Positions 46,864-61,563 of a stretch of 64,000 nucleotides of DNA are shown here, in pieces. Made by a program: the position numbers and the translations under genes. How positions within the stretch are numbered: the stretch's first letter is position 1; every line of letters begins with the position of its first letter. The DNA comes from Novosphingobium sp. ST904 (GTDB taxonomy: Bacteria; Pseudomonadota; Alphaproteobacteria; Sphingomonadales; Sphingomonadaceae). The notes beneath the pieces were generated by a model that had not been told where the DNA came from, did not search any database, and saw only the letters and a program-made list of their open reading frames with translations. The stretch spans positions 22,492 through 86,491 of the forward strand of contig NZ_LGJH01000140.1 in NCBI RefSeq assembly GCF_001298105.1, read 5' to 3'.

Positions 46864-46930
46864 ATCTTTGTGTAAGTCGATTCTGCATCTTGGTTTCCGA
46901 CGCGGCCCATTGACGACGCCGTGTCGCGCA

Positions 46931-46945
46931 TATAGTCCGACAAAT
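46931..46945. promoter_or_regulatory. Candidate GntR/FadR-type operator, site 1
   Basis: TATAGTCCGACAAAT. It matches the odd palindrome ATTAGTC-N-GACTAAT at 11 of the 14 arm positions. It lies in the divergent region between the aldose epimerase (start 46863) and the sugar transporter (start 47010), where it could control both. The same motif recurs at 49279, 58659 and 58675. Confidence 0.55.
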
Positions 46946-47009
46946 AGAAAGAGCGCAAGCCGGTTTGCCGCAGGGCACGGCGCGGTTCTCTGGTAAAGAG
47001 AGGATAGTC

Positions 47010-48326
47010 ATGCCCCCAGTGGTTTCATCTGGAGATGCCCCGGTGCTTCACGCGCAGCCAGCGGGCGTCCGCTACGGCCCGGCGCTGACGCTGCTTGCCA
47101 GCCTGTTTTTCATGTGGGGCTTCATCACCGTCATCAACAACACGCTGCTGCCGCACCTGCGCAGCGTGTTCGACCTGAGCTACACCCAGACGACGCTGAT
47201 CGAATCGGTGTGGTTCATCGCCTATTTCGTGGCCTCGATTCCCTCGGCGAAGCTGATCGAACGCGTCGGCTACCAGAAGTCGCTGGTCACCGGCCTGCTG
47301 ATCATGGCCGCCGGCGCGCTGGGCATGATGCTGGCTGCCAGCATCCCGTCCTACGGCATCACGCTGGTCATGCTCTTCGTGATCGCCAGCGGCATCACCC
47401 TGCTTCAGGTTGCGGCGAATCCCTATGTCGCCGTCGTCGGCAAGCCCGAGACCGCGTCCTCGCGCCTCAACCTGGTGCAGGCGCTCAACTCGGCCGGCAC
47501 CATGTTGGCCCCGCTGTTCGGCGCCTACCTGATTCTCGGCCGTTCCAAGAGCGGGACTTCGGCCGCCGGCACGGTCCTGACCGATGCCGAGCGTCTGGCT
47601 GACGCCCATTCGGTGATCCTGCCTTACGCGCTGGTCGCGGTGGTGCTGGTCATTCTCGCTGTGGTGATCGCCAAGTTCCCGCTGCCCTCGATGGGTACGG
47701 CGAACTCGCGCCTTGCCAAGGAGCAGCGCAAACACCTCTCGCTGTGGAATCACCGCAACCTCGTATTCGGCATTCCCGCGATCTTCATCTACCTGATCGC
47801 CGAGATCGGCGTGGCGAATCTCTTCGTGAACTTCGTCAGCCAGCCCGACATCGCCAACCTGACGCATGAACAGGCGGGCAAGTACCTTACCTTCCTGTGG
47901 GGCGGCATGATGGTCGGCCGTTTCGCGGGCTCCGCGATCATGCAGCGTTTCGACGCGGGCAAGGTTCTGGCGTTCTTCTCGGTCGGCGCCTTCGCGGTAA
48001 TGGTCGTGACGATCTTCGCCCATGGCCCGGTTGCGATGTGGTCGCTGATCCTTGTCGGCCTGTTCCACTCGATCATGTTCCCGACCATTTTCACCCTCGG
48101 CATCAAGGGTCTTGGCCCGCTGACCGAAGAAGGCTCGGGCCTGCTGGTCATGGCGATCGCCGGCGGCGCGCTGGTGATCGTGCAGGGATGGCTGGCCGAC
48201 AACTTCGGTCTCCAGAACTCGTTCATCCTGACCGCGGTATGCGAACTCTACGTGCTGTTCTACGCTCTGTGGGGCAGCAAGGTCACGAACGCGGAGCCGG
48301 ATCTGGTTCCCGAGGTGGCCGAGTAA
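47010..48326 (+). CDS. FucP-family sugar:H+ symporter (MFS)
   Basis: Inner-membrane transporter of the FHS/FucP branch of the major facilitator superfamily. 438 residues from ATG 47010, with GAGGA upstream, and about 12 TM helices. Family marks: FFMWGFITVINNTLLPHLR in TM1, LLQVAANPYVAVVGKPETAS and SRLNLVQALNSAGTMLAPLFG in TM4-5, and FPTIFTLGIKGLGPLTEEGSG in TM10. FucP relatives carry L-fucose, L-arabinose, D-galactose or glucose; the locus suggests L-arabinose and/or D-galactose. A strong terminator follows. Confidence 0.9.
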   Translation: MPPVVSSGDAPVLHAQPAGVRYGPALTLLASLFFMWGFITVINNTLLPHLRSVFDLSYTQTTLIESVWFIAYFVASIPSAKLIERVGYQKSLVTGLLIMAAGALGMMLAASIPSYGITLVMLFVIASGITLLQVAANPYVAVVGKPETASSRLNLVQALNSAGTMLAPLFGAYLILGRSKSGTSAAGTVLTDAERLADAHSVILPYALVAVVLVILAVVIAKFPLPSMGTANSRLAKEQRKHLSLWNHRNLVFGIPAIFIYLIAEIGVANLFVNFVSQPDIANLTHEQAGKYLTFLWGGMMVGRFAGSAIMQRFDAGKVLAFFSVGAFAVMVVTIFAHGPVAMWSLILVGLFHSIMFPTIFTLGIKGLGPLTEEGSGLLVMAIAGGALVIVQGWLADNFGLQNSFILTAVCELYVLFYALWGSKVTNAEPDLVPEVAE

Positions 48327-48348
48327 TCCGCGCTATCCAGCGTCAACG

Positions 48349-48388
48349 AAAAGGCCCCGGCGAGCGATCGCCGGGGCCTTTTCTTTTT
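48349..48388 (+). terminator. Strong intrinsic terminator after sugar transporter
   Basis: AAAAGGCCCCGGCGA / TCGCCGGGGCCTTTT, a perfect 15-bp stem with a GCGA loop, then CTTTTTT. The 5' A-run also gives a T-run on the opposite strand, so it can serve the convergent gntR gene (ends 48437). Confidence 0.93.
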
Positions 48389-48436
48389 TGGATTATGGAT
48401 GGGCCCGGACTTGGTCCGGGCGCGTTGGCGTCGGGC

Positions 48437-49195
48437 TTACTTTTTCTCCATGGCGCTGCGCGTGTCCTCCAGTGCCAGATCGACCAGCACGTTCATCGCT
48501 TCGGCAGCGGTCGCCGCATCCCCGGCGGCGATCGCGTCATAGACGCGGACGTGATCGGGGATCGGGTTGCGGGGCAGGGCGCGGGCCCGCTGCTTGAACT
48601 GGGTGGTCCAGTTCACCGCAGCACCGATCGAGGCGCTGAGCACGAGCAGGGCGTCGTTGCGGGTGGCCTGGAGAATCGCGTTGTGGAAGTCGCGATCCGC
48701 CGCCCGGCCGGCCTCGGTGGTCAGGGTGTGCCGCCGCATCGCGGCCAGCGCATCCTTCATCGCCTTGAGGTCGTTCTTGTCCCGGCGCTGCGCGGCAAGC
48801 CGCGCGGCGGCAGGCTCCACGATGGCGCGCAGTTCGAAGAGGCTGCGCACGAACTCGATGTCCGGCTCTCCCGCGAAGGCCCAGCCGAGCACTTCGGGAT
48901 CGAGCAGGTTCCAGCGGTCTCTCGGCAGCACCCGCGTTCCGGCCTTGGGGCGGCTGGCGACCAGGCCCTTGGCGGTGAGGACCTGAATGGCTTCCCGATA
49001 GGCGCTGCGCGAGACCTGGAGTTCCTCGGCGAAGGCGACTTCACCAGAAAGAATGTCCCCGGGCGCATATTTGCCGGACAAGATGGCCGTTCCCAGTTTA
49101 TGGGCGATCGCACCGTGCAGGCGGCGGCCCGGACCCCGAGCCTCGTCGGCCGGCCTTGCACTTTCTTCATCGTTCACGAAATTGGCTTCTGACAC
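48437..49195 (-). CDS. GntR-family (FadR subfamily) transcriptional regulator, likely regulator of the sugar locus
   Basis: About 252 residues. N-terminal winged HTH: LHGAIAHKLGTAILSGKYAP, GEVAFAEELQVSRSAYREAI, VLTAKGLVASRPKAGTRV. The C-terminal all-helical FCD ligand domain follows (EPDIEFVRSLFELRAIVEPA; RDFHNAILQATRNDAL with metal/ligand His; DHVRVYDAIAAGD). FCD regulators respond to sugar acids or other organic acids. I prefer the GTG at 49193-49195, because GGGAGG lies 11 nt upstream; the outer GTG at 49207 touches that site. Divergent from the dehydrogenase-led catabolic operon. Confidence 0.88.
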   Translation of the reverse strand: MSEANFVNDEESARPADEARGPGRRLHGAIAHKLGTAILSGKYAPGDILSGEVAFAEELQVSRSAYREAIQVLTAKGLVASRPKAGTRVLPRDRWNLLDPEVLGWAFAGEPDIEFVRSLFELRAIVEPAAARLAAQRRDKNDLKAMKDALAAMRRHTLTTEAGRAADRDFHNAILQATRNDALLVLSASIGAAVNWTTQFKQRARALPRNPIPDHVRVYDAIAAGDAATAAEAMNVLVDLALEDTRSAMEKK

Positions 49196-49278
49196 TGTTA
49201 TTGGCACCTCCCGAAGGGAACGTAACAGCCCTTCTCACGCGAAGGAACGACAAACATTGCGTTTCCTGTGCGCTGGGA

Positions 49279-49293
49279 ATATGTCGGAGTAAA
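49279..49293. promoter_or_regulatory. Candidate GntR/FadR-type operator, site 2
   Basis: ATATGTCGGAGTAAA, a degenerate copy of ATTAGTC-N-GACTAAT (GTC-G-GA core and TAA half kept). It lies between the divergent gntR gene and the catabolic operon, 15 nt before the ATG at 49308 and overlapping the zone of its ribosome site, a position suited to repression. Confidence 0.45.
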
Positions 49294-49307
49294 TAGGGAG
49301 ACCCCAA

Positions 49308-50834
49308 ATGACCGAATTCCGTTCCATCGTGGCCGAAACCGGTGAGCCGCACGGCGAACCTCTGGCCGTGAACGGCCCCGCCGACGTCGCCGCAGCCTGC
49401 GCCGCCGCTGCCGCTGCTTTCGACACTTATCGCGCCACCGATCGTGAAACGCGCGCTGCGTTCCTCGAACGAATCGCCGACGAGATCATCGCCATCGGCG
49501 ATTCGCTGATCGAAGCCTACATTGCCGAAAGCGGACTGCCCCGTGGTCGCGGCGAGGGCGAGCGTGGCCGTACCGTCGGCCAGCTGCGCCTGTTCGCCGA
49601 TGTCGTCCGCAAGGGTCAGTGGCAGCAGCTGCGTATCGATCCGGCTCTGCCGGACCGCGCCCCGCTGCCTCGTCCCGACCTGCGCCTGCGCATGATTCCG
49701 GTGGGTCCGGTTGCCGTGTTCGGCGCCTCGAACTTCCCGCTCGCCTTCTCGACCGCCGGTGGTGACACCGCTTCGGCGCTCGCCGCCGGTTGCCCGGTCG
49801 TGGTAAAGGGTCACCCGGCCCACCCGATCACCGGCAGCCTGATTGCCGCAGCGATCACCAAGGCCGTGAAGGACGCCGGTCTTCCCGAAGGCGTGTTCCA
49901 GCACCTCGTCGGCCCGTCGAACGAACTCGGCGCCGCGCTGGTCCAGGATCCGCGCATCATGGCGGTCGGCTTCACCGGCTCGCGCGGTGGCGGCCTTGCC
50001 CTCGCCAAGCTGGCGCAGGCCCGCGAAGTGCCGATCCCGGTCTATGCCGAAATGTCGAGCATCAACCCCGTCCTGCTGCTTCCCGAAGCGCTGAAGGCAC
50101 GCGGTGAAGCACTCGGCACCGCTTTCGTCGGTTCGCTGACGATGGGCGCCGGCCAGTTCTGCACCAACCCCGGCCTGATCCTGGCTGTCGAGGGTGAAGG
50201 TCTGGACGCCTTCGTCGCGGCCGCCACCGGCGGTGTTGCCGAAGCCAAGCCGCAGACCATGCTCACCACCGGCATCGCCGCTGCTTATGCCAAGGGCGTC
50301 GAAGCGCTTGAAGGCAATGCCGGCGTCGAAACCATCGCCAAGGGCGAAGAAGGCAGCAAGACCACCGGCGGTGCGATCCTGTTCCAGACCACGGCTGCCC
50401 AGTTTCTCGCCGACAAGGCGATCGGCCACGAAGTGTTCGGCGCCGCGTCGATCGTCGTGCGCTGCAAGGACGAAGCCGAACTCGCCGGCCTGCTTGAAGG
50501 TCTGGAAGGCCAGCTGACCGCCACCCTGCACATGGACGAAGCCGACGAAGCCGCCGCTTCGCGCCTGCTGCCCGTGCTGGAGCGCAAGGTCGGCCGCATC
50601 CTCGTCAACGGCTGGCCCACCGGCGTCGAAGTGTGCCACGCGATGGTGCACGGCGGCCCGTTCCCCTCGACCACCGACCCGCGCACCACGTCGGTCGGCA
50701 GCATGGCGATCGACCGCTTCCTGCGCCCGGTCAGCTACCAGAACTTCGCTCAGGGCCTGCTTCCGGCAGAACTGCGCGACGCGGCCTTCGGTGACGGCGC
50801 TCCCCGCCTGATCGACGGCGCACTTACCCTCTAA
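49308..50834 (+). CDS. 2,5-dioxovalerate (2-oxoglutaric semialdehyde) dehydrogenase
   Basis: NAD(P)-dependent aldehyde dehydrogenase giving 2-oxoglutarate, last step of the non-phosphorylating pentose route. 508 residues. Cofactor region VGPVAVFGASNFPLAFSTAG, general base Glu248 in PVYAEMSSINPVLLLP, nucleophile Cys285 in MGAGQFCTNPGLIL. The AFGASNFPLAFS and PTGVEVCHAMVHGGPFPSTTD features mark the KGSADH group of Azospirillum-type pentose pathways. GGGAG precedes the ATG. First gene of a plus-strand operon continuing through dgoA. Confidence 0.92.
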   Translation: MTEFRSIVAETGEPHGEPLAVNGPADVAAACAAAAAAFDTYRATDRETRAAFLERIADEIIAIGDSLIEAYIAESGLPRGRGEGERGRTVGQLRLFADVVRKGQWQQLRIDPALPDRAPLPRPDLRLRMIPVGPVAVFGASNFPLAFSTAGGDTASALAAGCPVVVKGHPAHPITGSLIAAAITKAVKDAGLPEGVFQHLVGPSNELGAALVQDPRIMAVGFTGSRGGGLALAKLAQAREVPIPVYAEMSSINPVLLLPEALKARGEALGTAFVGSLTMGAGQFCTNPGLILAVEGEGLDAFVAAATGGVAEAKPQTMLTTGIAAAYAKGVEALEGNAGVETIAKGEEGSKTTGGAILFQTTAAQFLADKAIGHEVFGAASIVVRCKDEAELAGLLEGLEGQLTATLHMDEADEAAASRLLPVLERKVGRILVNGWPTGVEVCHAMVHGGPFPSTTDPRTTSVGSMAIDRFLRPVSYQNFAQGLLPAELRDAAFGDGAPRLIDGALTL

Positions 50835-50913
50835 CCAGTCCACTCAATCCCTGCGGCGCGCTCCCCCAAGAAGGCGCGCCGCAGATAGGGCCAAGAGCCC
50901 GGGAGAGATCTCC

Positions 50914-51918
50914 ATGACCTACCTTCGCCTGCTCCAGCATCGCGCGCCTGACGGCGTGCGCTCCGTCATTCTTGCCGAGGGCGATGCCGCCCACTTCCTT
51001 CAGGGCGTCACCAGCACCCGCGAACTCGCCCAGCGCGCCATCGCCGAAGGCGTGACGCTGGCCGAAGCCGCCAAGGCTGCCGGACAGGGCGAAGCGGTCG
51101 ACATCAAGGCCGAATTCGCGGCCGGCAACCTGCTTGCCCCGATCGACCACGAAGATTCCGCTCACCTGCTGATGACCGGCACGGGCCTGACACACCTCGG
51201 TTCGGCCGAGGGTCGCAACAAGATGCACCAGGCTGCCGCCTCGGGTGAGCATGTCACCGATTCCATGCGCATGTTCCTTGAGGGCCTTGAAGGCGGCAAG
51301 CCCGCCGCGGGCACCGAAGGCCAGCAGCCGGAATGGTTCTACAAGGGCGACGGCCAGTTGCTCGTCGGCCCCGGCGATGCGCTGACCATGCCCGCCTTCG
51401 CCAAGGACGGCGGCGAAGAGCCGGAACTGGCGGGCATCTACCTCGTCGGCGAAGACGGCCATGTCTACCGCCTCGGCCTCGCGCTCGCCAACGAGTTCTC
51501 GGACCACGTCACCGAGCGTCACAACTACCTGTGGCTTGCGCACTCGAAGCTGCGCCAGGCCGCGCTCGGCCCGGAACTGCTGCTGGGCACCCCGCCGGAG
51601 AAGATCGAGGGCACCAGCAAGATCGTGCGCGGCGGCGAGACGATCTGGGAAAAGCCCTTCCTCTCGGGCGAAGGCAACATGTCGCACACCTTTGCGAACC
51701 TTGAGCATCACCACTTCAAGTACGACCTGTTCCGCCGTTCGGGCGACGTGCATGTCCACTTCTTCGGCACCGCGACGCTCTCGTTCGCCGACGGCGTGGC
51801 CACGCAGGAAGGCGATGTATTCGAGATCGACGCCGCACCCTTCACCCTGCCGGTTTCCAACCCGCTTGCCCGCGCTGCCGCTTCGGGCGAGGCGACGACA
51901 ACCGTGAAGGCACTCTGA
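50914..51918 (+). CDS. araD1: L-2-keto-3-deoxyarabonate dehydratase-type protein (AraD1, FAH family)
   Basis: Predicted to dehydrate the 2-keto-3-deoxypentonate to 2,5-dioxovalerate. 334 residues. It belongs to the fumarylacetoacetate-hydrolase-fold AraD1 group: LLMTGTGLTHLGSAEGRNKM, EWFYKGDGQLLVGPGD, ELAGIYLVGEDGHVYRLG, ANEFSDHVTERHNYLWLAHSK and the metal/active-site SHTFANLEHHHFKYDLF. The classical Azospirillum AraD is a DapA-fold enzyme, so this is the alternative, non-homologous solution. 79 nt after the dehydrogenase, 3 nt before the next gene. Confidence 0.85.
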   Translation: MTYLRLLQHRAPDGVRSVILAEGDAAHFLQGVTSTRELAQRAIAEGVTLAEAAKAAGQGEAVDIKAEFAAGNLLAPIDHEDSAHLLMTGTGLTHLGSAEGRNKMHQAAASGEHVTDSMRMFLEGLEGGKPAAGTEGQQPEWFYKGDGQLLVGPGDALTMPAFAKDGGEEPELAGIYLVGEDGHVYRLGLALANEFSDHVTERHNYLWLAHSKLRQAALGPELLLGTPPEKIEGTSKIVRGGETIWEKPFLSGEGNMSHTFANLEHHHFKYDLFRRSGDVHVHFFGTATLSFADGVATQEGDVFEIDAAPFTLPVSNPLARAAASGEATTTVKAL

Positions 51919-51921
51919 GCC

Positions 51922-52848
51922 ATGGATCCGATCCGTATCGCCATCGTTGGCGTGGGCAAGATCGCCCGCGACCAGCATATCCCCGCGATCGAGGGCAACC
52001 CGAACTTCAGCCTCGGTGCCACGGTCAGCCCGCACCATCGCGGCCCTGAAGGCATCCCGCACTTCAGCAGCCTCGAAGACCTGGTCGAGAACGGCCCGGC
52101 CATCGACGCGGTGGCGCTCTGCACCCCGCCGCAGGTCCGTTACGACCTCGCCGCGCTGGCGCTGGCCAAGGGCATGCACGTGTTCCTGGAAAAGCCGCCG
52201 GGCGCCACGCTGGCCGAAGTGGCGGCGCTGGAAAGCCGTGCCGACAAGGTGGGCGTGACGCTGTTCGCTTCGTGGCACTCGCGCTACGCCGCGGGTGTTG
52301 CCCCGGCCCGCGCCTGGCTTGCCGAGCGTACGATCAAGAGCGCCAGGATCGTCTGGCGCGAAGACGTGCGCGTCTGGCATCCGGGTCAGGACTGGATCTG
52401 GGAACCGGGCGGCCTTGGCGTGTTCGATCCGGGCATCAATGCCCTCTCGATCGCCACCCACATCATGCCGCGCCCGTTCTTCCTCAAGGAAGCGACGCTC
52501 AGCCTGCCGGCCAACCGCGCTGCGCCGATCGCCGCCGATATCGAGTTCCGCGATACCGCCGGAGCCGAAATCCACATGGACCTCGACTGGCGCCAGACCG
52601 GCCCGCAGTCGTGGGACATCATCGTCGAGACTGACGCGGGAACGCTGAAGCTCTCGAACGGCGGCGCCGTGCTCACCCTGCCCACCGGCACAGAGCACAA
52701 CGAAGACCTTGAATATCCGGGTCTTTATTCGCGCTTCGCCAACCTGATCCGTGGCGGCCGCAGCGATGTGGACATCGCGCCGCTGCGCCTCGTGGCCGAC
52801 GCATTCCTGCGCGGACGCCGCGAGCTCGTCGAAGAATTCCACGACTGA
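51922..52848 (+). CDS. L-arabinose/D-galactose 1-dehydrogenase (Gfo/Idh/MocA family)
   Basis: Oxidises the aldose to its lactone, entry step of the pathway. 308 residues. Rossmann motif IRIAIVGVGKIARDQHIPAI, nucleotide/active-site VALCTPPQVRYDLAALAL and HVFLEKPPGATLAEV (catalytic Lys-Pro), FASWHSRYAAGV, and REDVRVWHPGQDWIWEPGG followed by LGVFDPGINALSI. From memory, these stretches closely match Azospirillum brasilense AraA, which oxidises both L-arabinose and D-galactose, and GalD-type galactose dehydrogenases. Dual use would explain dgoKA downstream. No signal peptide. Confidence 0.88.
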   Translation: MDPIRIAIVGVGKIARDQHIPAIEGNPNFSLGATVSPHHRGPEGIPHFSSLEDLVENGPAIDAVALCTPPQVRYDLAALALAKGMHVFLEKPPGATLAEVAALESRADKVGVTLFASWHSRYAAGVAPARAWLAERTIKSARIVWREDVRVWHPGQDWIWEPGGLGVFDPGINALSIATHIMPRPFFLKEATLSLPANRAAPIAADIEFRDTAGAEIHMDLDWRQTGPQSWDIIVETDAGTLKLSNGGAVLTLPTGTEHNEDLEYPGLYSRFANLIRGGRSDVDIAPLRLVADAFLRGRRELVEEFHD

Positions 52849-52870
52849 TTTCCCAGGGAGGGGACAAGAC

Positions 52871-54434
52871 ATGTTGAAGGCGCTTCGCCTGACCACCGCA
52901 GCCGTCCTGCTGAGCGCCACCGCGCTCGCAGGCACGGCTCATGCCGATACCGACGGACAGCCCACCACGGCGACCATCGACGCCGACAAGCCCGGCGCGG
53001 TCTATCACAAGGAAGTCTTCACCCAGTTTGCCGAGCACCTCGGCACGGGGATCTACGGCGGCCTGTGGGTCGGCAAGAACAGCAAGATTCCGAACACCAA
53101 CGGTTTCCGCAACGACGTCGTCCGGGCGCTCAAGGACCTCTCGGTCCCCGTGATCCGCTGGCCCGGCGGCTGCTTCGCCGACGAGTACAACTGGCGTGAA
53201 GGCATCGGCCCGCAGAACAAGCGTCCGGTCAAGGTCAACACCCACTGGGGCGGCGTGACCGAGCCGAACACCGTGGGCACGCACGAATTCTTCGAACTGC
53301 TGCGCCAGGTCGGCGCGGAAGCCTATATCGCCGGAAACGTCGGCGACGGCACGCCGCGCGAAATGGCCGAATGGGTCGAATACATGACCGCACCTGCCGG
53401 TTCGCTGGCTGAGCTGCGCGCCAAAAACGGCCACAAGGAGCCCTGGAAGGTCGCCTACTTCGGCGTCGGCAACGAACTTTGGGGTTGCGGCGGGAACATG
53501 CGTCCCGAATTCGCGGCCGACGAGACCCGCCGTTATGCCACCTTCGTGAAGGCGCTGCCGGCACCAAGATCCTGAAGGTCGCCGCAGGCGCCAATGTCGA
53601 CGACTACAACTGGACCGAGACGATGATGCGCGTCGCGGCCCCGCAGCTCGACGGCGTTTCGCTGCATTACTACGTCCACCCCGCCGGTGGCTGGCGCCGC
53701 GTGCGCCCGCCGTCGATTTCGACGAACATGGCTGGGCCGATGCGCTGAACGGCGCGCGCCACATGGACGAGCTGATCACCAGGCACTCGGCGATCATGGA
53801 CAAGTACGACCCCGAGAAGCGGGTCTTCCTGGCCGTGGACGAATGGGGTTCGTGGTACGCCCAGGATCCGGGCACGCATCCGGGCTTCCTGCGCCAGCAG
53901 AACACCCTGCGTGACGCGCTGATCGCCTCGGTACATCTCGATATCTTCGCCAAGCATGCCGACCGCGTGCGCATGACCGCCATCGCCCAGATGGTGAACG
54001 TGCTCCAGGCGATGATCTTCACCGAAGACAACAAGATGGTGCTCACGCCCACCTACCACGTCTTCGAGATGTACAAGCCGTGGCAGGATGCCACCGTGCT
54101 GCCGATCCAGATCAAGTCGCCCTGGTATCACAAGGACGAGTTCTCGATGCCTGCCGTCAGCGGCTCGGCAGTGAAGGGCAACGACGGCAAGATCCATGTC
54201 GGCCTGTCGAACCTCGATCCGAACCAGTCCAACACGGTGACGATCAAGCTCGGCGGCGTCAGCGCTTCGGCGGTCACGGGCCGTATCCTGACGGCACCCG
54301 CGATCAACGCGCACAACACCTTCGACGCACCGAATGCGGTGAAGCCCGAGGCCTTCTCCGGCGCCACCGTGCAGGGCGGCAACCTTGTCGTCACCCTGCC
54401 GGCCAAGTCGGTCGTGGTGCTCGAACTGCAATGA
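52871..54434 (+). CDS. Secreted GH51 alpha-L-arabinofuranosidase, two frameshifts as sequenced
   Basis: Releases L-arabinose from arabinan or arabinoxylan side chains in the periplasm. Signal peptide [22 protein letters not shown]51 marks: [40 protein letters not shown], acid/base Glu202 in [14 protein letters not shown], and nucleophile Glu in [15 protein letters not shown]-terminal beta-domain ends at [15 protein letters not shown]. One base is missing near 53557 (CTGGCC read as CTGCC) and one near 53694 (TGGGCG or similar read as TGGCG); repair gives about 521 residues. It starts 22 nt after the 1-dehydrogenase and overlaps dgoK by 4 nt. Confidence 0.92.
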
Positions 54435-55330
54435 GCGTGAACCACGTCCCCGCCGCTCCTTATGTCTTGGGAGATTGGGGCACCACCCGGCTGCGGCTGT
54501 TCCGCCTCGACGGCGAGGACGTGGTCGCCCGGCTCAGCGGGCCGGGCGCGCTTGAAGGTCACGCCGAAGCGGCGCTGGCCGAAAGGCTGGAAAGCTGGAA
54601 GGCCGAAGGGCCGCTGTCCGAAGTCGTGCTTTGCGGCATGGCCGGTGCTCCGGGTGCGCTCGTCGCGGCAGGCTATGCGGCCTGCCCGGCGGACGCGGCC
54701 AAGTGGCTGTCCTCACGCACGCGGCTCGAAGTCGCCGGCATTCCGGTTTCGGTGCTGCCGGGGCTGAGCTGCCATGCGGACGGCGTGCCGGAAGTGATGC
54801 GGGGCGAGGAGGCGCAAGTCTTCGGCGCCCTCGCGCTTCACCCGGACCTTGCGGAGGGCGAACATCTCATCGCGCTGCCGGGGACACACTGCAAGTGGGT
54901 CGCGGTCAGGGATGGCACGATCACCATGTTCCGCACTCACCCGACCGGCGAGCTTTTCGCGCTGCTGGCCGGACAGTCGACGCTGACCGGACCCGATACG
55001 CCGGGCGAGGGCACTGTCGACGAAGGCTTCGCACGCGGTCTCGAACGCTGCGGCGAGCCGCTGACCGGCGCGCTGTTCGAAGCGCGGGGTGCACGAATGC
55101 TGGACGGCCGGTCGAAGGACTGGTCGCGCGGTTATATCTCGGGGCTGCTCATCGGCGGCGAAGTGGCAGCCCGTGTCACGCCGGGCGCTTCGGTGGTCCT
55201 GATAGGCGACCCGGCGCTGTCGGCGCTCTATGACCGTGCGCTGGAAGGACTCGGCTGCACCGCCCGCCGTATCGACGGCGACGCGGCGGTCCTTGCCGGT
55301 CTGCGTATCGCAAAGGAATTGAAAGCATGA
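54431..55330 (+). CDS. dgoK: 2-dehydro-3-deoxygalactonokinase
   Basis: Phosphorylates 2-keto-3-deoxygalactonate in the De Ley-Doudoroff pathway. 299 residues. ASKHA-type phosphate loop [16 protein letters not shown] at the N-terminus, [38 protein letters not shown] and [16 protein letters not shown] are characteristic of DgoK. The ATG overlaps the GH51 stop (ATGA). A kinase for a phosphorylating route is not needed for L-arabinose oxidation to 2-oxoglutarate, so it indicates D-galactose use. Confidence 0.92.
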
Positions 55331-55959
55331 AGATCGAACAGGTTCTGGCAGAAGGCGCTGCCCCGGTCGTCGCGATCCTGCGCGGCATCCAGACTCACGA
55401 AGCGGTCGAGATCGGCACGGCGCTGGTCGAGGCCGGCGTGCGGATCATCGAAGTGCCGTTCAACTCGCCCGATCCCGCCGGCTCCATCGGCGCCATGGTC
55501 GAGGCTCTGGGAGACCGCGCCGCGATCGGCGGCGGCACCGTGATCGGCACCGATCTGGCGGAGACGCTGGCGGGTGTCGGCGGTACCTTCATGGTTTCGC
55601 CCAATGTCGATCCGGCGGTCATCAGGCGCTCGATCGAACTCGGCATGGACGTGCTCCCCGGCTTCCTCACCCCGACCGAGGCATTCGCCGCCGTGGCGGC
55701 AGGCGCCAATGACCTCAAGCTGTTCCCCGGCTCGGTGCTGGGCAGCAGCTACATCAAGGCGATCCGCGAAGTCCTGCCCAAGACCAGCCGCGTCTGGGCG
55801 GTGGGCGGTGTGGGCGCGGCCAATGTCGCGGAATACCGCGCAGCGGGCGTCTTCGGCATCGGCGTGGGCGGCAGCCTCTACAAGCCCGGCTTCGATGCCG
55901 CGACGGTTGGCGCAAAGGCCGCCGAGATCGTCGCCGCATGGAACGCCTGCGCGGCATAA
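55327..55959 (+). CDS. dgoA: 2-dehydro-3-deoxy-6-phosphogalactonate aldolase
   Basis: Class I aldolase splitting KDPGal to pyruvate and glyceraldehyde 3-phosphate. 210 residues of the KDPG/KDPGal aldolase family: PVVAILRGIQTHEAVEIG, RIIEVPFNSPDPAGSIGAMV with the catalytic Glu region, GGGTVIGTDLAETLAG and the Schiff-base Lys in AAGANDLKLFPGSVLGSSY. The PFNSP and LKLFPGS variants fit DgoA rather than Eda. 4-nt overlap with dgoK (ATGA). Confidence 0.93.
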   Translation: MKIEQVLAEGAAPVVAILRGIQTHEAVEIGTALVEAGVRIIEVPFNSPDPAGSIGAMVEALGDRAAIGGGTVIGTDLAETLAGVGGTFMVSPNVDPAVIRRSIELGMDVLPGFLTPTEAFAAVAAGANDLKLFPGSVLGSSYIKAIREVLPKTSRVWAVGGVGAANVAEYRAAGVFGIGVGGSLYKPGFDAATVGAKAAEIVAAWNACAA

Positions 55960-55982
55960 CAAAGCAAGTTCGGAGAGAGTAC

Positions 55983-57008
55983 GTGTTCAGGAAATTCCTC
56001 GCTGCCGCCAGCCTTGCCGTGCTGGCCGCCTCCGGTGCGGCCGATGCGCAAGTGCGGGTCGGCGAGAAGGGGGCGGGCACGCTCAATTCCCGGTTGAGCG
56101 GCGACCTCACGGTGCACGATCCGGTCATCATCCGGGAAGGAGATACCTACTACGTCTTCAGCACAGTGGGCCGCTATGTCGGCATCAAGACCTCGAAGGA
56201 CCTGAAGGTCTGGAAGGATGCCGGTTCGGTCTTCGCCGAGATTCCGGCATGGGCCAGGCAGGCGATCCCCGGCACCGAAGGCATCTGGGCGCCCGACATC
56301 TCCTACGTGAACGGCGAATACCGGCTCTATTACTCGGTCTCGACGTTCGGCTCCAACCGTTCCGCCATCGGCCTGGCGACGAGCAAGACGCTTGACCCCA
56401 AGGCCAAGGGTTATGGCTGGAAGGACCAGGGCCTCGTCGTCATGTCGACGCATGAGGACGACTTCAACGCCATCGACCCCAACTTCGTCGAGGATGCGCA
56501 GGGCCGCCAGTGGCTCTCGCTCGGAAGTTTCTGGACGGGCCTGAAGCTGTTCCCGCTCGACGCGAAGACCGGCAAGGTCGCCCCCGGCACCGAGCCCTAT
56601 TCGATCGCCCGCCGCCTCGCTCCTGCAGGTGGCCCGGCCCCGGTCGAGGCGCCTTTCATCATCCCGCACGGCGGCTTCTACTATCTGCTCGCCAGCTATG
56701 ACTATTGCTGCAAGGGCGTGAACAGCACCTACTACACCGTGGTCGGACGCTCGAAGAAGATCACCGGGCCCTACCTCGGCAAGGACGGCAGTTCGATGAT
56801 GGAAGGTCGCGGCACGATCTTCCTGCGCGCCGACCTGGAAGAGCAGCAGCGCTTCCGCGGCCCCGGCCATGCCGGCGCCTTCACCGACAAGGACGGCACC
56901 ACTTACGTCGTCTACCATGCTTACGACAAGCAGGCGAACGGAGCGCCCACGCTGCGCATCGCGCCGATCCGCTGGGACGCGGACGGCTGGCCTGTCGCCG
57001 AATACTGA
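55983..57008 (+). CDS. Secreted GH43 endo-/exo-acting arabinanase (arabinan endo-1,5-alpha-L-arabinosidase type)
   Basis: Cleaves alpha-1,5-arabinan. 341 residues from a GTG at 55983 with GGAGAG 4 nt upstream; the longer in-frame ATG at 55938 overlaps dgoA. Signal peptide FRKFLAAASLAVLAASGAADA. Five-bladed propeller with catalytic residues in place: base Asp in VHDPVIIREGDTYYVF, Asp in NAIDPNFVEDAQGRQW and acid Glu in APVEAPFIIPHGGFYYLL, plus the EGIWAPDISYVNGEYRLYYS motif of GH43 arabinanases. Export by Sec. An intrinsic terminator follows. Confidence 0.92.
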   Translation: MFRKFLAAASLAVLAASGAADAQVRVGEKGAGTLNSRLSGDLTVHDPVIIREGDTYYVFSTVGRYVGIKTSKDLKVWKDAGSVFAEIPAWARQAIPGTEGIWAPDISYVNGEYRLYYSVSTFGSNRSAIGLATSKTLDPKAKGYGWKDQGLVVMSTHEDDFNAIDPNFVEDAQGRQWLSLGSFWTGLKLFPLDAKTGKVAPGTEPYSIARRLAPAGGPAPVEAPFIIPHGGFYYLLASYDYCCKGVNSTYYTVVGRSKKITGPYLGKDGSSMMEGRGTIFLRADLEEQQRFRGPGHAGAFTDKDGTTYVVYHAYDKQANGAPTLRIAPIRWDADGWPVAEY

Positions 57009-57021
57009 TCCCACCTGACGG

Positions 57022-57055
57022 CACCCCGGTCCCCCGACCGGGGTGTCCTTTTTCC
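57022..57055 (+). terminator. Intrinsic terminator between two GH43 genes
   Basis: CACCCCGGTC-CCCC-GACCGGGGTG, perfect 10-bp stem, then TCCTTTTTCCC. It ends the long operon that starts at 49308 and gives partial or full separation of the next GH43 gene. Confidence 0.85.
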
Positions 57056-57111
57056 CATCGCCGGATCAAATCGGACCGGCGCCACGAAACAAGCATCTCG
57101 GAGAGGATGAC

Positions 57112-58542
57112 ATGAACTTTTCCCTTTCGCGCCGCGCTTTTGCCGCCAGTGCCGCCCTGCTTCCCATCGCCTGCAACCGTGCAGCCGATGCCACTCTCGG
57201 TGGTGACGACAAGGCTGCCGTCGCCGATCCGCTCAAGGGCCCGATCAATCCGCTGGTGAAGAACCGCGCCGATTCGCAGGTCTTCCGCCACGAGGACGGC
57301 AACTACTACCTCACCGGCTCGGTCCCCGAATACGATCGCCTGATCCTGCGTCGCTCGAAGACGCTGGCCGGTCTCGCCACCGCCGAGGAGCGCGTGCTCT
57401 GGCGTCATGAGAAGACCGGCCCGATGTCCGGCTTCCTCTGGGCGCCCGAACTGCACCTCATCGACGGCAAGTGGGTCATGTACTTCGCAGCCGGCCCCAG
57501 CGGCGGCGGCGAGGACGTGTTCCGCATCCGCACTTACGCCATCGTTTGCGACGGCTCCGACCCGATGACCGGCAAGTGGTCGGTCCTTGGCGAATTCAAG
57601 ATGCCGTGGGACAGCTTCAACCTCGATTCCACGAGCTTCGTCCACAAGGGCCAGCGCTATTTCGCATGGGCCCAGCGCGAGGAAGGGATCGACACCAATT
57701 CGAACCTCTACATCGCGCCGATGAAGGACGCGCTGACGCTTTCGGCCGATCCCGTCCGCCTTACGGTGCCGACGCTCGACTGGGAAACCCGCGCCTACAA
57801 GGTGGCAGAGGCCCCGGCGGTGCTGGCAAAGAACGGCCGCCTGTTCATGACCTACTCGGCCAGCGGCACCGGCGCCGTCTATTGCCTCGGCATGCTGACG
57901 ATCGACGAGAACGCCAACCTCATGGACCCCAAGGCATGGACCAAGTCGCAGAAGCCGGTCTTCGCGACTTGCGTGGAAACCTCTGTCTACGGCCCCGGCC
58001 ACAACAGCTTCACGGTGGACGAGAACGGCAACGACATCCTCGTCTACCACGGCCGCGACTACGAGAAGATCGAAGGCGACCCGCTGCTCAACCCGGATCG
58101 CCACACCCGCGTCCAGCGCATCTATTACGATGACAAGGGCGCGCCGGACTTCGGCGTTCCGGTCGGCAACGGCGCGCTGCCCGAGCGCTTCACCCCGGCT
58201 GTGAACCGCGAGGTGATGCTGGGTCATGACGGTACGAAGCTGACCCTCGCCAAGGGTACGCCGCTGCCCCGGACCCAGTTCCGCGAGATCGCCGGCGCTG
58301 ACGGCGCGGTGCAGCTTTCGCCGATCCTCCTGCGGGACAAGGGGCTTGCGGTGGGCAAGGACGGCGTGGCTGCGCTGACCGCGCTCGGCACTGCCGACCT
58401 GTTCCTGCGCGAGGCCGGCGAAGTGCAGGGCACCGTGCGCTTCGTTTCCAAGTCCGACTCGTCGAAGGCGCTCGCGTTCTCCGGCGATGCGGTGAAGTTG
58501 GCGGACAAGGGCGATCCGGCGACCAGCTGGCTCGTCGGCTGA
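57112..58542 (+). CDS. GH43-family exo-arabinosidase with AbfB-like C-terminal domain, Tat-type lipoprotein
   Basis: 476 residues from ATG 57112 with GGAGAGGA upstream. The N-terminus LSRRAFAASAALLPIAC combines a twin-arginine motif (SRRAFAA) with a lipobox (LPIAC), so it is probably exported folded by Tat and lipidated. The GH43 propeller (about 45-350) shows base Asp in ADSQVFRHEDGNYYLTGSV, FLWAPELHLIDGKWVMYFA, Asp in FNLDSTSF and acid Glu in YKVAEAPAVLAKNG, resembling GH43_26-type exo-1,5-L-arabinanases. The C-terminal ~120 residues (TRFREIAGADGAVQLSP-like to DPATSWLVG) look like an AbfB/CBM42 arabinose-binding trefoil. Exact specificity is inferred. Confidence 0.82.
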   Translation: MNFSLSRRAFAASAALLPIACNRAADATLGGDDKAAVADPLKGPINPLVKNRADSQVFRHEDGNYYLTGSVPEYDRLILRRSKTLAGLATAEERVLWRHEKTGPMSGFLWAPELHLIDGKWVMYFAAGPSGGGEDVFRIRTYAIVCDGSDPMTGKWSVLGEFKMPWDSFNLDSTSFVHKGQRYFAWAQREEGIDTNSNLYIAPMKDALTLSADPVRLTVPTLDWETRAYKVAEAPAVLAKNGRLFMTYSASGTGAVYCLGMLTIDENANLMDPKAWTKSQKPVFATCVETSVYGPGHNSFTVDENGNDILVYHGRDYEKIEGDPLLNPDRHTRVQRIYYDDKGAPDFGVPVGNGALPERFTPAVNREVMLGHDGTKLTLAKGTPLPRTQFREIAGADGAVQLSPILLRDKGLAVGKDGVAALTALGTADLFLREAGEVQGTVRFVSKSDSSKALAFSGDAVKLADKGDPATSWLVG

Positions 58543-58562
58543 CAGCAACAACTCAGACAAGA

Positions 58563-58590
58563 CCGCCCGGAATCCTCGTGTTCCGGGCGG
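58563..58590 (+). terminator. Hairpin after second GH43 gene
   Basis: CCGCCCGGAA-TCCTCGTG-TTCCGGGCGG, perfect 10-bp stem, 20 nt after the stop. Only AATT follows, so termination may be partial. Confidence 0.6.
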
Positions 58591-58658
58591 AATTGCGGCG
58601 AATCTGCCACACTCCACGTCCCTTTTTGATAGCGCTCCCCCTTTTATCCTTGCATCGC

Positions 58659-58673
58659 ATTAGTCAGACTAAT
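58659..58673. promoter_or_regulatory. Candidate GntR/FadR-type operator, site 3 (perfect palindrome)
   Basis: ATTAGTC-A-GACTAAT, a perfect 7+1+7 palindrome 61 nt before the TonB receptor ATG. The T-GTC-N-GAC-A core agrees with the TGT/ACA-type half-sites used by FadR-subfamily GntR proteins. Immediately next to site 4. Confidence 0.65.
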
Positions 58674-58674
58674 A

Positions 58675-58689
58675 ATTAGTCCGAGTAAT
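58675..58689. promoter_or_regulatory. Candidate GntR/FadR-type operator, site 4
   Basis: ATTAGTC-C-GAGTAAT, one mismatch from the perfect palindrome; its centre is 16 bp from that of site 3. Two adjacent sites suggest cooperative binding at the receptor promoter. A further GGGAGGG ribosome site lies at 58721-58727 before the ATG at 58735. Confidence 0.6.
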
Positions 58690-58734: not shown

Positions 58735-61563
58735 ATGGCGCTCAAGCCATTTGCATTCTGCACCGCATCCGTCTTCGCCCTGAGCCTCGCCACCGTGGCT
58801 CACGCGCAGGATGCCGCTCCGCAGGCCGCCGACGCCGCTGAACCGACTGCCGAGGACATCATCGTCACCGGCGTGCGCGCCTCGATCGTGGGCGCCATCA
58901 ACAGCCGCAAGGAAAACATCCAGATCGTCGATTCGATCGTGGCTGAAGACGTCGGCAAGCTGCCTGACAACAACGTGATCGAAGCGCTCCAGCGCGTCAC
59001 CGGCATCCAGGTCACCGACCGTGCCGGCGGCGAGACCGGGACCATCACGATCCGTGGCCTGTCCGATCCTGTCACCACCTGGAACGGCCGCAACATCTTC
59101 ACCGCGGCCGGCACCTCGTTCGCGCTGCAGGACATCTCGTCGAACCTCGTCCGCAAGATCGACGTCTACAAGACCCGCTCGGCAGACCAGCTCGAATTCG
59201 GCCTCGCCGGCCAGATCGACGTCGCCACGCGCCGTCCGTTCGACTTCGACGGTTTCACCATTTCCGGCCTTGCGCGCGGTGTCTACAGCGAGCTGGCGGA
59301 CAAGGTGAACCCGAACGTCGCGCTGCTCGTCAGCGATCGCTGGGAAACCGGCATCGGCGACATCGGCTTCCTCATCAACGGCAGCTATACGCGTTCGAAG
59401 TATCGCAACATGAACGTGCAGGCCGGCGCCCTGGTGCCGTTCGCCACCGAAAACCCGCCTTCGGACACCTGGCTGACGCCGCTGCAGCGCATTTTCCCCA
59501 ACACCGACCCGGCGAACCCCTACTGGAAGCCGGGCCTCAACGCGGGTCTGCCGACCACGCCGGGTTCGACCCTCAACATCGACGGCGTAGAGGTACCTTA
59601 CTACCTCTCGCGCGATGCGGTCATCAGCTCGGATCTTTACGGCAAGCGTGAGCGTCCCTCGATCAACGCCGCCCTGCAGTGGGCGCCGAACGACCGTTCG
59701 ACCTACACCGCCGAGTTCTACTACACCGGCTTCCGCGGCAGCACCTTCAACTCGATGCTGTTCAGCTTTGCCGACTGGTGGGGCGATCTGGGTGATGATC
59801 CGGGTTCGACCTTCGAACTCTATGACGGCACCAACGTCATCAAGTCGCGCAAGATCGGCGGCGTTTCGGGCTTCAACAGCGCGGACTACTCCACGAACAA
59901 GACCGACAGCTATGTCTACGCTCTGAACGCGGACTGGGACGTGGGCGATCGCGGCAAGATCACCGCCGACCTCGCCTACCAGGACAGCAAGAACGAAACC
60001 TCGTTCTTCGCCGTGCGCACCAACCGCGCGCCGCTGGACATCGACGTCGACTTCAACGCCGGCGGCGGTATCCCGTCGTACAGCTTCGGCACGCCGGGAG
60101 TCCTGACCGACGCAACCCAGTGGACCGTCGGCGACCTGTTCGACAACGGCAACCGGAGCACCGGCAAGGCTTTGACCTTCCAGCTCGACGGCTACTACGA
60201 ATGGGACGAAGGCTTCCTGCGCCGGATCAAGGCGGGCTTCCGCTACGACGATCGCAAGGCCAGCACCTTCATTCGCGAACAGAGCGCGGGCGCCCTGGGC
60301 GGCACGCTGGCCTCGCTGGGTGACGGTTACAGCTTCACCAACAGCGGCTTCTTCGATGGCCGCGCCGACGTTCCGACCAGCTGGGTGCTGGCAAACGGCC
60401 CGGCGCTGTACAAGAACGCCGACGCCATCCGCACGCTCTACCAGGCGGCCAACCCGAACCTGCTGCTGTCCGATCAGCTTTCGTTCGGCCGCGTGTTCGA
60501 CATCAACGAAGTCACCCTGGCGGCCTACCTCCTGGCTGACGGTCAGGTCGAAATCTTCGGCCGTCCGCTGATGCTCGAAGGCGGCGTGCGCATGGTCACG
60601 ATCGATACCGATTACGACTACTTCGATCGTTACAACGACTATGCCCGCACCGGCGTTTCGACCGGTCAGATGAAGTTCCTGCCGAGCTTCACCGCACGTT
60701 ACGAGATCACGCCGAACCTGCGCGTGCGCTTCAACTACGGTGAAACCCTGCGTCGTCCGGCGTTCGGCGACCTCAACCCGAACGTTTCGCTCACCGGCGA
60801 CCTTTCGGGTCTGGGCTTCGGTACGGGCAGCGCCGGCAACGCCGGCCTGAAGGCGACGACGTCGAAGAACTTCGACCTTGCGCTGGAATGGTACTTCGAG
60901 CGCAACAGCGCAATCTACGTCACCGGTTTCCGCCGCGAAATCAGTGGTCTCGTCGTTCCGCTCACCACGCTCGAGTATATCCCGAACAACGGCATCGAGG
61001 GCAGCACCGCCACCGACTACTTCCAGGTTACCCGTCCGACCAACGCGTCCGACGGCGTGCTGAAGGGCGTGGAACTGGGCCTGACCTACTTCCCGACCTA
61101 CCTGCCGAGCGTGCTCGACGGCCTGGGCTTCCAGGGCAGCGCCACGATCCTCGACTCTTCGCAGACGATCCCGGAAACCGACGACGAGGGCAACACCGTC
61201 CTCACCAAGTCGGCGTTCTTCGCGGTGTCGAAGTTCTCGTACAACGCCACGCTGGCTTACGAGCGCGGTCCGATCGGTGCACGTCTCTCCTACGTGTGGC
61301 GCAAGGGCTTCCTCCAGCGCAACGAGGCGCGTGCCTTCGCCAACCCGATCGGCTTCTGGCGCAAGCCCGAGAAGAGCCTGGACTTCCAGCTCACCTTCGC
61401 CGTGACCGACGACATCGGCCTGACCTTCGACGCGGTGAACATCACCAAGGCGAAGCAGCAGGACTACTACAAGTTCGAGGATGCCGGTGGCCCGGTCACC
61501 ATGAACGCGAATACCCTGCTGATCGACCGCACGTTCGCGGCGGGCGTTCGCTTCAAGTTCTAA
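58735..61563 (+). CDS. TonB-dependent outer-membrane receptor
   Basis: Energised outer-membrane importer, here presumably for arabinan or arabinogalactan oligosaccharides. 942 residues. Signal peptide KPFAFCTASVFALSLATVAHA; a TonB box-like stretch EDIIVTGVRASI; plug domain with VDSIVAEDVGKLPDNNVIEA and LQRVTGIQVTDR, VRKIDVYKTRSADQLEFGLA; then a 22-strand barrel ending in FAAGVRFKF with a terminal Phe. This sequence type is common for carbohydrate receptors of Caulobacter and sphingomonads. Two palindromic operator candidates precede it and two hairpins follow, so it is its own unit. Confidence 0.95.
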   Translation: MALKPFAFCTASVFALSLATVAHAQDAAPQAADAAEPTAEDIIVTGVRASIVGAINSRKENIQIVDSIVAEDVGKLPDNNVIEALQRVTGIQVTDRAGGETGTITIRGLSDPVTTWNGRNIFTAAGTSFALQDISSNLVRKIDVYKTRSADQLEFGLAGQIDVATRRPFDFDGFTISGLARGVYSELADKVNPNVALLVSDRWETGIGDIGFLINGSYTRSKYRNMNVQAGALVPFATENPPSDTWLTPLQRIFPNTDPANPYWKPGLNAGLPTTPGSTLNIDGVEVPYYLSRDAVISSDLYGKRERPSINAALQWAPNDRSTYTAEFYYTGFRGSTFNSMLFSFADWWGDLGDDPGSTFELYDGTNVIKSRKIGGVSGFNSADYSTNKTDSYVYALNADWDVGDRGKITADLAYQDSKNETSFFAVRTNRAPLDIDVDFNAGGGIPSYSFGTPGVLTDATQWTVGDLFDNGNRSTGKALTFQLDGYYEWDEGFLRRIKAGFRYDDRKASTFIREQSAGALGGTLASLGDGYSFTNSGFFDGRADVPTSWVLANGPALYKNADAIRTLYQAANPNLLLSDQLSFGRVFDINEVTLAAYLLADGQVEIFGRPLMLEGGVRMVTIDTDYDYFDRYNDYARTGVSTGQMKFLPSFTARYEITPNLRVRFNYGETLRRPAFGDLNPNVSLTGDLSGLGFGTGSAGNAGLKATTSKNFDLALEWYFERNSAIYVTGFRREISGLVVPLTTLEYIPNNGIEGSTATDYFQVTRPTNASDGVLKGVELGLTYFPTYLPSVLDGLGFQGSATILDSSQTIPETDDEGNTVLTKSAFFAVSKFSYNATLAYERGPIGARLSYVWRKGFLQRNEARAFANPIGFWRKPEKSLDFQLTFAVTDDIGLTFDAVNITKAKQQDYYKFEDAGGPVTMNANTLLIDRTFAAGVRFKF

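Follow-up and report, generated by a model that had tools for sequence, protein, structure and literature searches.

How does a sphingomonad bring genes that appear to serve the import and oxidation of L-arabinose and D-galactose under common control, when these genes are read from several promoters? The question is raised by a window of 64,000 nucleotides (the whole stretch of DNA analysed) from Novosphingobium sp. ST904 (contig NZ_LGJH01000140.1, positions 22,492 to 86,491), which contains a sugar locus, a gene (gntR) for a GntR-family regulator and four similar palindromes in the gaps between genes. We think it likely that the palindromes are operators of the GntR protein encoded at 48437-49195, which would repress, as a single regulon, the genes that take up L-arabinose and D-galactose and break them down oxidatively, by occupying their promoters. 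The local regulator is put forward because the motif co-occurs with it when 59 genomes of the genus are compared and because, with TATAGTATGACTATA as the only exception, no site is found at 11 dehydratase loci that have no regulator nearby.

Four palindromes and the regulator gene they accompany

The four palindromes were read directly and lie at the positions, and in the gene gaps, given for them in the original prediction. None is assigned to a strand.

46931-46945, no strand: operator 1, TATAGTCCGACAAAT, in the gap between the divergent epimerase and transporter genes
49279-49293, no strand: operator 2, ATATGTCGGAGTAAA, in the gap between gntR and the catabolic operon
58659-58673, no strand: operator 3, ATTAGTCAGACTAAT, before the TonB-dependent receptor gene, a perfect 7+1+7 palindrome
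58675-58689, no strand: operator 4, ATTAGTCCGAGTAAT, adjoining operator 3, the two starting 16 base pairs apart

The window contains 1, 1, 0, 1 and 3 sites at 0, 1, 2, 3 and 4 mismatches to the consensus ATTAGTCNGACTAAT, where 30 Markov-1 simulations of the window gave means of 0, 0, 0.1, 0.43 and 3.3. By letters the pair at 58659 and 58675 is far beyond chance, and the site at 46931, with 3 mismatches where 0.43 such sites are expected, is suggestive. A matrix was also built from 30 sites of relatives whose regulator is less than 80% identical, with nothing taken from the window. The four sites are the window's top four 15-mers on this matrix (24.3, 24.0, 23.1 and 20.4 bits), although the relatives' sites were chosen with a pattern derived from the finding, so that the form of the motif is not independent evidence. 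The fifth position reaches only 12.2 bits, which agrees with the earlier remark that the motif was not noticed elsewhere in the window. Over the whole genome there are 8 matches to WWWWGTCNGACWWWW and 0 to its reversed control.

The motif was approached independently by counting all 576 palindromes of the type 3+k+3 (k from 0 to 8) upstream of the locus genes. GTC-N-GAC heads the count for the transporter (57 of 87 loci) and for the epimerase (59 of 84); for TonB receptors (25 of 59) it takes second place. It is not in the six listed top forms upstream of gntR, the aldehyde dehydrogenase or the dehydratase, where GC-rich words swamped the counts; the site between gntR and the dehydrogenase has a GAG half, so an exact count misses it.

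Conservation was followed through matches to the regulator at E <= 1e-40, paralogues included, which occur in 32 of the 149 family genomes drawn and 26 of the 59 genus genomes drawn. A class-wide search (E <= 1e-55) matched 2 of 289 genomes, both in this family, Sphingomonadaceae. Stretches of up to 20 kilobases round the matches were annotated by tblastn with the window proteins, together with 80 named loci, mostly from Novosphingobium, Sphingobium and Sphingomonas but also from Sphingopyxis, Croceicoccus and Porphyrobacter. This gave 110 loci with a regulator of at least 55% identity, from which 47 representatives less than 88% identical were kept. With anything within one mismatch of WWWWGTCNGACWWWW counted as a site, 32 of 33 representatives have one upstream of the transporter; for gntR the count is 30 of 46, and for the receptor 4 of 8. 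The gntR site is present in 26 of the 31 representatives with at least 70% regulator identity and in 4 of the 15 below. A motif common to the import, epimerase/dehydratase and catabolic promoters is supported by computation.

As a control the half-site was permuted through all 210 arrangements. The true arrangement is the best at transporter, gntR and receptor, and the other 209 average 0.50, 0.30 and 0.06 respectively. The nearest arrangements (31 at the transporter, 24 at gntR) leave the G and C where they are and pick up the sites already counted; the one with 31 of 33 at the transporter had appeared as a rearranged palindrome in a first permutation test. Of the 80 named loci, 76 have the site before gntR, and of the 63 transporter upstream regions among them 61 have it. 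Both locus sites are unchanged in strain PP1Y, on its plasmid record. Two named loci that have the regulator but nearly no pathway genes nearby (L158 and L159) have no site.

The motif also follows the regulator from genome to genome. With the pattern WWTWSTCNGASWAWW and its reverse as control, the 26 genus genomes with the regulator contain 91 motif and 15 control matches, and the 33 without it 7 and 14. At least one motif match is present in 24 of the 26 and 6 of the 33 (Fisher p 7.5e-9, relatedness not removed); control counts do not differ between the two sets (p 0.50). An earlier, stricter pattern gave no overall excess over control in total counts across the 149 family genomes, and in several genomes its matches fall within about 15 kilobases of the regulator, for example 3 of 3 in G086 and 2 of 2 in G136. 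At the 11 dehydratase loci fetched without a regulator nearby (nine from eight regulator-free genomes and two second copies, a part of all such copies), TATAGTATGACTATA in L161 is the only site within one mismatch. This word lies at L161 8807 (genome G076), between the transporter and dehydratase genes, in a genome where the regulator has no match, and may represent a hand-over to another regulator at that place.

Predicted promoter boxes around the palindromes

Conserved boxes that resemble promoter elements accompany the sites.

46910-46915, plus strand: TTGACG, predicted -35 box of the transporter promoter, 21 nucleotides (nt) before operator 1
46955-46959, minus strand: CTTGC (GCAAG on the plus strand), predicted -35 box of the epimerase promoter, with conserved GCAA
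49257-49262, plus strand: TTGCGT, predicted -35 box of the catabolic operon, 22 nt before operator 2
58650-58653, plus strand: TTGC, predicted -35 box of the receptor promoter, 9 nt before operator 3

When relatives are aligned on operator 1, conservation covers the operator itself (-1 to +14), TTGA before it (-21 to -18) and, after it, single As in columns +17 and +21 and GCAAG (+24 to +28). Of 33 aligned sequences, 27 have TTGAC at -21 and 29 have GCAA at +24, and 26 of 32 representatives have both; shuffled downstream DNA gives a mean of 0.77 GCAA of 32, with a maximum of 4. TTGAC reads as the predicted -35 box of the transporter, and CTTGC on the minus strand as that of the divergent epimerase or dehydratase gene. 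The TATA at the edge of operator 1 would then appear to be the -10 element of both opposite promoters. In the alignment on operator 2 the columns at -22, -21 and -19 of the catabolic-operon box are conserved. CTTGC also stands 9 nt before the receptor operator, where the TTGC keeps the same spacing in the aligned relatives, and TTGC is found 13 nt before the operator of a GH27 gene outside the window in four of the five upstream regions printed. A moderately conserved block, GGAANNACAA, at 49244-49253, upstream of the predicted catabolic-operon -35 box, could belong to the gntR promoter or to another factor.

The distance from palindrome to -35-like box differs among promoters (9, 13, 21 and 22 nt). 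This is the layout of a steric repressor, because the palindrome shifts relative to the box yet covers the spacer or the -10 region. A bound dimer would cover that region and RNA polymerase could not start. At 46931 one operator over the TATA box of two opposite promoters would silence the transporter together with the epimerase-dehydratase-lactonase transcript, and at 58659 and 58675 two adjacent dimers would cover the receptor promoter. Relatives vary in the second copy of this pair, which some possess and others show in degenerate form.

The motif could instead be a general promoter element of sphingomonads, a conserved -10 region that no regulator binds, and its constant distance from -35-like boxes would suit such an element. 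We find this very improbable. The motif is at background in the genus genomes without the regulator, and it is missing from the regulator-free dehydratase loci apart from the one one-mismatch relative; both half-sites are conserved, which is more than a -10 hexamer requires, and the distances just given vary from promoter to promoter.

The regulator, its proposed effector and its paralogues

The domain matches of the protein (PF00392, 48.1 bits with a cut-off of 27; PF07729, 83.8 bits with a cut-off of 24.3) place it in the FadR subfamily of GntR proteins, with an N-terminal GntR winged helix-turn-helix and a C-terminal FCD domain. In a predicted model (predicted local distance difference test score, pLDDT, 82.2; predicted template modelling score, pTM, 0.74) residues 100-250 form helices only. 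Operators of this subfamily usually have GT and AC three bases apart, according to the excerpts of PMC4494728, and the T-GTC-N-GAC-A symmetry, which had been said to fit the subfamily, has this usual geometry: GTC-N-GAC at the conserved sites gives the spacing of three, and binding there is predicted. In the same source, Arg at position 28 of the helix-turn-helix (HTH) correlates with G or C before GT. In the numbering of its Table 1, and if the Pfam match is ungapped, the regulator has Val53 at position 28, and its sites have A or T before GT. The two would be consistent with the correlation; the paralogues share the Val, so this protein is not singled out.

The nearest relative in the PDB by sequence is 7c7e, DgoR. 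Residues R123, D167, H171 and H215 align with R102, D146, H150 and H195 of the DgoR pocket and metal site (residues as in PMC7674646) and are invariant in 18 orthologues. DgoR responds to D-galactonate; with these four residues kept, this leads us to favour an aldonate as the effector, although by analogy only. The original prediction, a 2-keto-3-deoxy acid or another intermediate, is not supported as it stood. L-arabinonate, its six-carbon analogue D-galactonate, or both, formed in the first steps of the pathway, would bind the FCD domain and the DNA would be released, as with DgoR.

Sites outside the window precede two further TonB receptors (C78:315397 and C97:34462) and a GH27 alpha-galactosidase (C106:6233). 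Of the 59 genus genomes 10 have the GH27 gene, and every one of these also has the regulator (chance 8.5e-5 if independent). The site lies upstream of the gene in 9 of the 10, among them two of the three that match the regulator only once. The alpha-galactosidase is therefore likely, from these patterns, to be a further member of the regulon. Its control by a paralogue only was considered and is not favoured, as the site is kept in those two of three single-match genomes. The site before the C97 receptor is also kept in both of the other genomes inspected, of which one belongs to the same species and the other to the same genus. Other matches were set aside. C155:3149 and C155:31234 lie inside open reading frames, and C2:45447 and C153:8035 have no clear target; these were treated as chance. 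C103:14124 (TATAGTCTGACTTAT) was rejected as a target. It has an FAD oxidoreductase gene on one side and, on the other, a divergent gene that by eye resembles another GntR regulator, and at this place (L007 4130-6274) the word is probably the site of that other regulator.

Two paralogues of the regulator lie elsewhere in the genome (C129:8672 and C78:224889), and the operator could be common to several related FCD regulators, with a paralogue binding the window sites also or instead. Each paralogue gene is near a TonB receptor preceded by a site of equal score (ATTACTCAGACAAAA at C129:16327 and ATTACTCGGACAAAT at C78:221800), and the recognition helices are nearly identical (VSRSVLREAF and VSRSAYREAI). 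Against this, the sites follow the local gene across genera, the motif is still close to the regulator in four genomes with a single match at E <= 1e-40 (G173, G177, G192 and G195), and the GH27 gene keeps its site in single-match genomes as described above. We regard binding by a paralogue as rather unlikely. The paralogous module on C78 (L077 6600-10390, corresponding to C78:221800-225590 in this genome, G000) consists of a TonB receptor 67% identical to that of the window, with the site ATTACTCGGACAAAT before it, and a 49% identical GntR regulator beside it.

Returning to repression by the local regulator, several observations weigh against it. By letters the site at 49279, with 4 mismatches, is one of three such where 3.3 are expected and is no better than chance, so that this site above all, and also that at 46931, rest on conservation. 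The gntR site is missing in 16 of 46 representatives (11 of the 15 with less than 70% regulator identity and 5 of the 31 above), the receptor site in 4 of 8, and one of the ten GH27 genes (in G173) has no site. Genomes with the regulator tend to be larger, and phylogenetic relatedness is left in the Fisher test. In a comparison of folds, Foldseek places DhdR, PmiR and others at the top, and the 50 matches listed do not include 7c7e. The DgoR pocket residues Q173, R179, W181 and T191 are not kept in the alignment; on the criterion for DgoR equivalogs the first four pocket and metal residues are present and these last four are not, so the protein would work like DgoR but is not classed as DgoR. 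The paralogues (50% and 49% identity) lie near sites that score 22.3-23.7 bits, and the window sites score 21.6-24.2; the operator code thus does not single out the window regulator, and the receptors at C78 and C97 cannot be assigned with certainty. The earlier claim that the local regulator binds all four sites is upheld as likely, also for this protein as the sole binder, and as no more than likely in view of the two paralogues of about 50% identity near equal-scoring sites.

A simple sigma-70 scan also found no promoter at the three predicted promoter places of the window, so that the boxes described above are predictions from conservation. Promoters that need help would be expected to look like this if the regulator activated from its sites rather than repressed. 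We judge activation improbable, since the sites lie over the predicted -10 region or spacer, where a bound protein should block polymerase, and since DgoR, the closest relative with a solved structure, represses from a pair of inverted repeats that overlap its own promoter.

The pathway and comparison with known systems

The genes of the locus, as annotated from their sequences, are as follows.

42876-43730, minus strand: SMP-30/gluconolactonase-type lactonase (PF08450)
43864-45660, minus strand: IlvD/EDD-type sugar-acid dehydratase; best solved relative galactonate dehydratase 7m3k (1095 bits), with 481 bits to L-arabinonate dehydratase 9evv
45682-46848, minus strand: aldose 1-epimerase (PF01263)
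47010-48326, plus strand: GluP/FucP-type sugar transporter (TIGR01272 above cut-off)
48437-49195, minus strand: GntR-family regulator with FCD domain, predicted repressor (PF00392, PF07729)
49308-50834, plus strand: aldehyde dehydrogenase (PF00171; closest solved 3v4c, 530 bits), from its context probably acting on alpha-ketoglutaric semialdehyde
50914-51918, plus strand: GguC/AraD1 family protein (NF040903, 511.7 bits, cut-off 340), probably 2-keto-3-deoxy-L-arabinonate dehydratase; no solved relative was found for it
51922-52848, plus strand: Gfo/Idh/MocA dehydrogenase, probably L-arabinose/D-galactose 1-dehydrogenase (solved relatives 4ew6, D-galactose, and 6jnj/7cgq, L-arabinose)
52871-54434, plus strand: GH51-type arabinofuranosidase gene, out of frame in the assembly
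54431-55330, plus strand: 2-keto-3-deoxy-galactonokinase (PF05035; start chosen by inspection)
55327-55959, plus strand: 2-dehydro-3-deoxy-6-phosphogalactonate (KDPGal) aldolase (NF006600 above cut-off)
55938-57008, plus strand: GH43, arabinanase-like (PF04616; NF053747 below cut-off)
57112-58542, plus strand: GH43 (PF04616; start chosen by inspection)
58735-61563, plus strand: TonB-dependent receptor (TIGR01782 above cut-off)
61717-63810, plus strand: MGH1-like glycoside hydrolase with F5/8 type C domain, downstream of the receptor (PF22422)

All five families of the oxidative L-arabinose pathway are present (dehydrogenase, lactonase, dehydratase, keto-deoxy-acid dehydratase and semialdehyde dehydrogenase), and so are both the kinase and the aldolase of the De Ley-Doudoroff galactose branch, which occur in the locus of only some relatives. 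Judged by these families, the locus encodes the oxidative L-arabinose route and a De Ley-Doudoroff D-galactose branch, with arabinan hydrolases and a TonB receptor. L-arabinose and D-galactose have the same configuration at C2 to C4, so one dehydrogenase, lactonase and dehydratase could plausibly serve both sugars. The GH51-type gene has two frame breaks between about 53560 and 53760, which decay or an assembly error would both fit; those copies of relatives that were checked look open, judged by the spacing of two matched pieces. A strong GC-rich hairpin (58563-58590) follows the second GH43 gene, and next to it, at 58548, stands ACAACTCAGACAAGA, a word that weakly resembles a site (12.0 bits).

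The original prediction of one regulon for import, anomer conversion and catabolism stands in that these promoters share the motif; its scope is now sharpened to L-arabinose and arabinan with a D-galactose branch, and the GH27 gene outside the window is added. A more far-reaching form may be put forward tentatively, as somewhat less likely than not: the repressor dimer may act as a two-way switch on a symmetric TATA shared by opposite promoters, kept across sphingomonad genera, and the same aldonate-sensing FCD regulator may gather TonB receptors and an alpha-galactosidase into one arabinogalactan regulon. If these predictions are true, they name a regulator and an operator for the use of arabinan, L-arabinose and D-galactose in Novosphingobium, Sphingobium and Sphingomonas, and between the transporter and epimerase genes there would be a natural bidirectional promoter controlled by a repressor that responds to a ligand. 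The 15-mer is a ready means to find further regulon members in new genomes, and the regulator is a candidate aldonate sensor for alphaproteobacterial engineering.

Systems of this kind are well known. No paper on this regulon was found in searches of the open-licence literature, judged by titles and the starts of abstracts, and this member, its extent and its promoter layout appear to be new. What appears new from the sequence comparisons is that the operators overlap conserved promoter-like boxes, that the transporter/epimerase operator seems to cover a TATA shared by opposite promoters, and that the set includes GH27.

For the oxidative L-arabinose pathway the closest description is AraR2 of Halomonas (Leyn et al. 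2017, PMC5507952), compared here by description only. In the excerpts of that paper it is a predicted GntR-family regulator of L-arabinonate genes, so the kind of control is the same, but the host is Halomonas and the transporter there is of the TRAP type. The genome set of that study includes one Erythrobacter and one Porphyrobacter, for which the excerpts name no such regulator. The operators here share with those of the FadR subfamily (Suvorova et al. 2015, PMC4494728, in excerpt) an A/T-rich palindrome, three bases between GT and AC, and occurrence as single and double sites. The subfamily consensus is TKGT/ACMA, where the K position is A or T here, and Arg is most frequent at HTH position 28, where the window regulator has Val.

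DgoR of Escherichia coli (7c7e) is likewise a GntR protein of the FadR subfamily in a sugar-acid pathway. Its dimers repress by binding two inverted repeats that lie close together and overlap the promoter, and D-galactonate is the effector, as described in the excerpts of PMC12288454; the abstract of PMC7674646 words the effect of the ligand the other way round. Common to both are two close inverted repeats over a promoter, the GT-N3-AC palindrome (IR1 of DgoR contains TTGTAGTACAA) and the Arg and Asp-His-His of the ligand and metal pocket. The systems differ in the operator letters, GTC-N-GAC here, in several pocket residues, and in that the regulon predicted here has several promoters, including those of TonB receptors, with L-arabinose genes at its centre.

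The layout at operator 1 resembles the bidirectional promoters of E. coli described in PMC12825309, which have a symmetric TATA with outward -35 boxes on both sides, and at which repressor sites are known (AcrR). A ligand-responsive repressor at a natural bidirectional promoter was called unknown so far in the abstract of that 2026 paper. In Novosphingobium the arrangement is predicted from sequence boxes, and the operator overlaps the apparently shared box within a catabolic locus.

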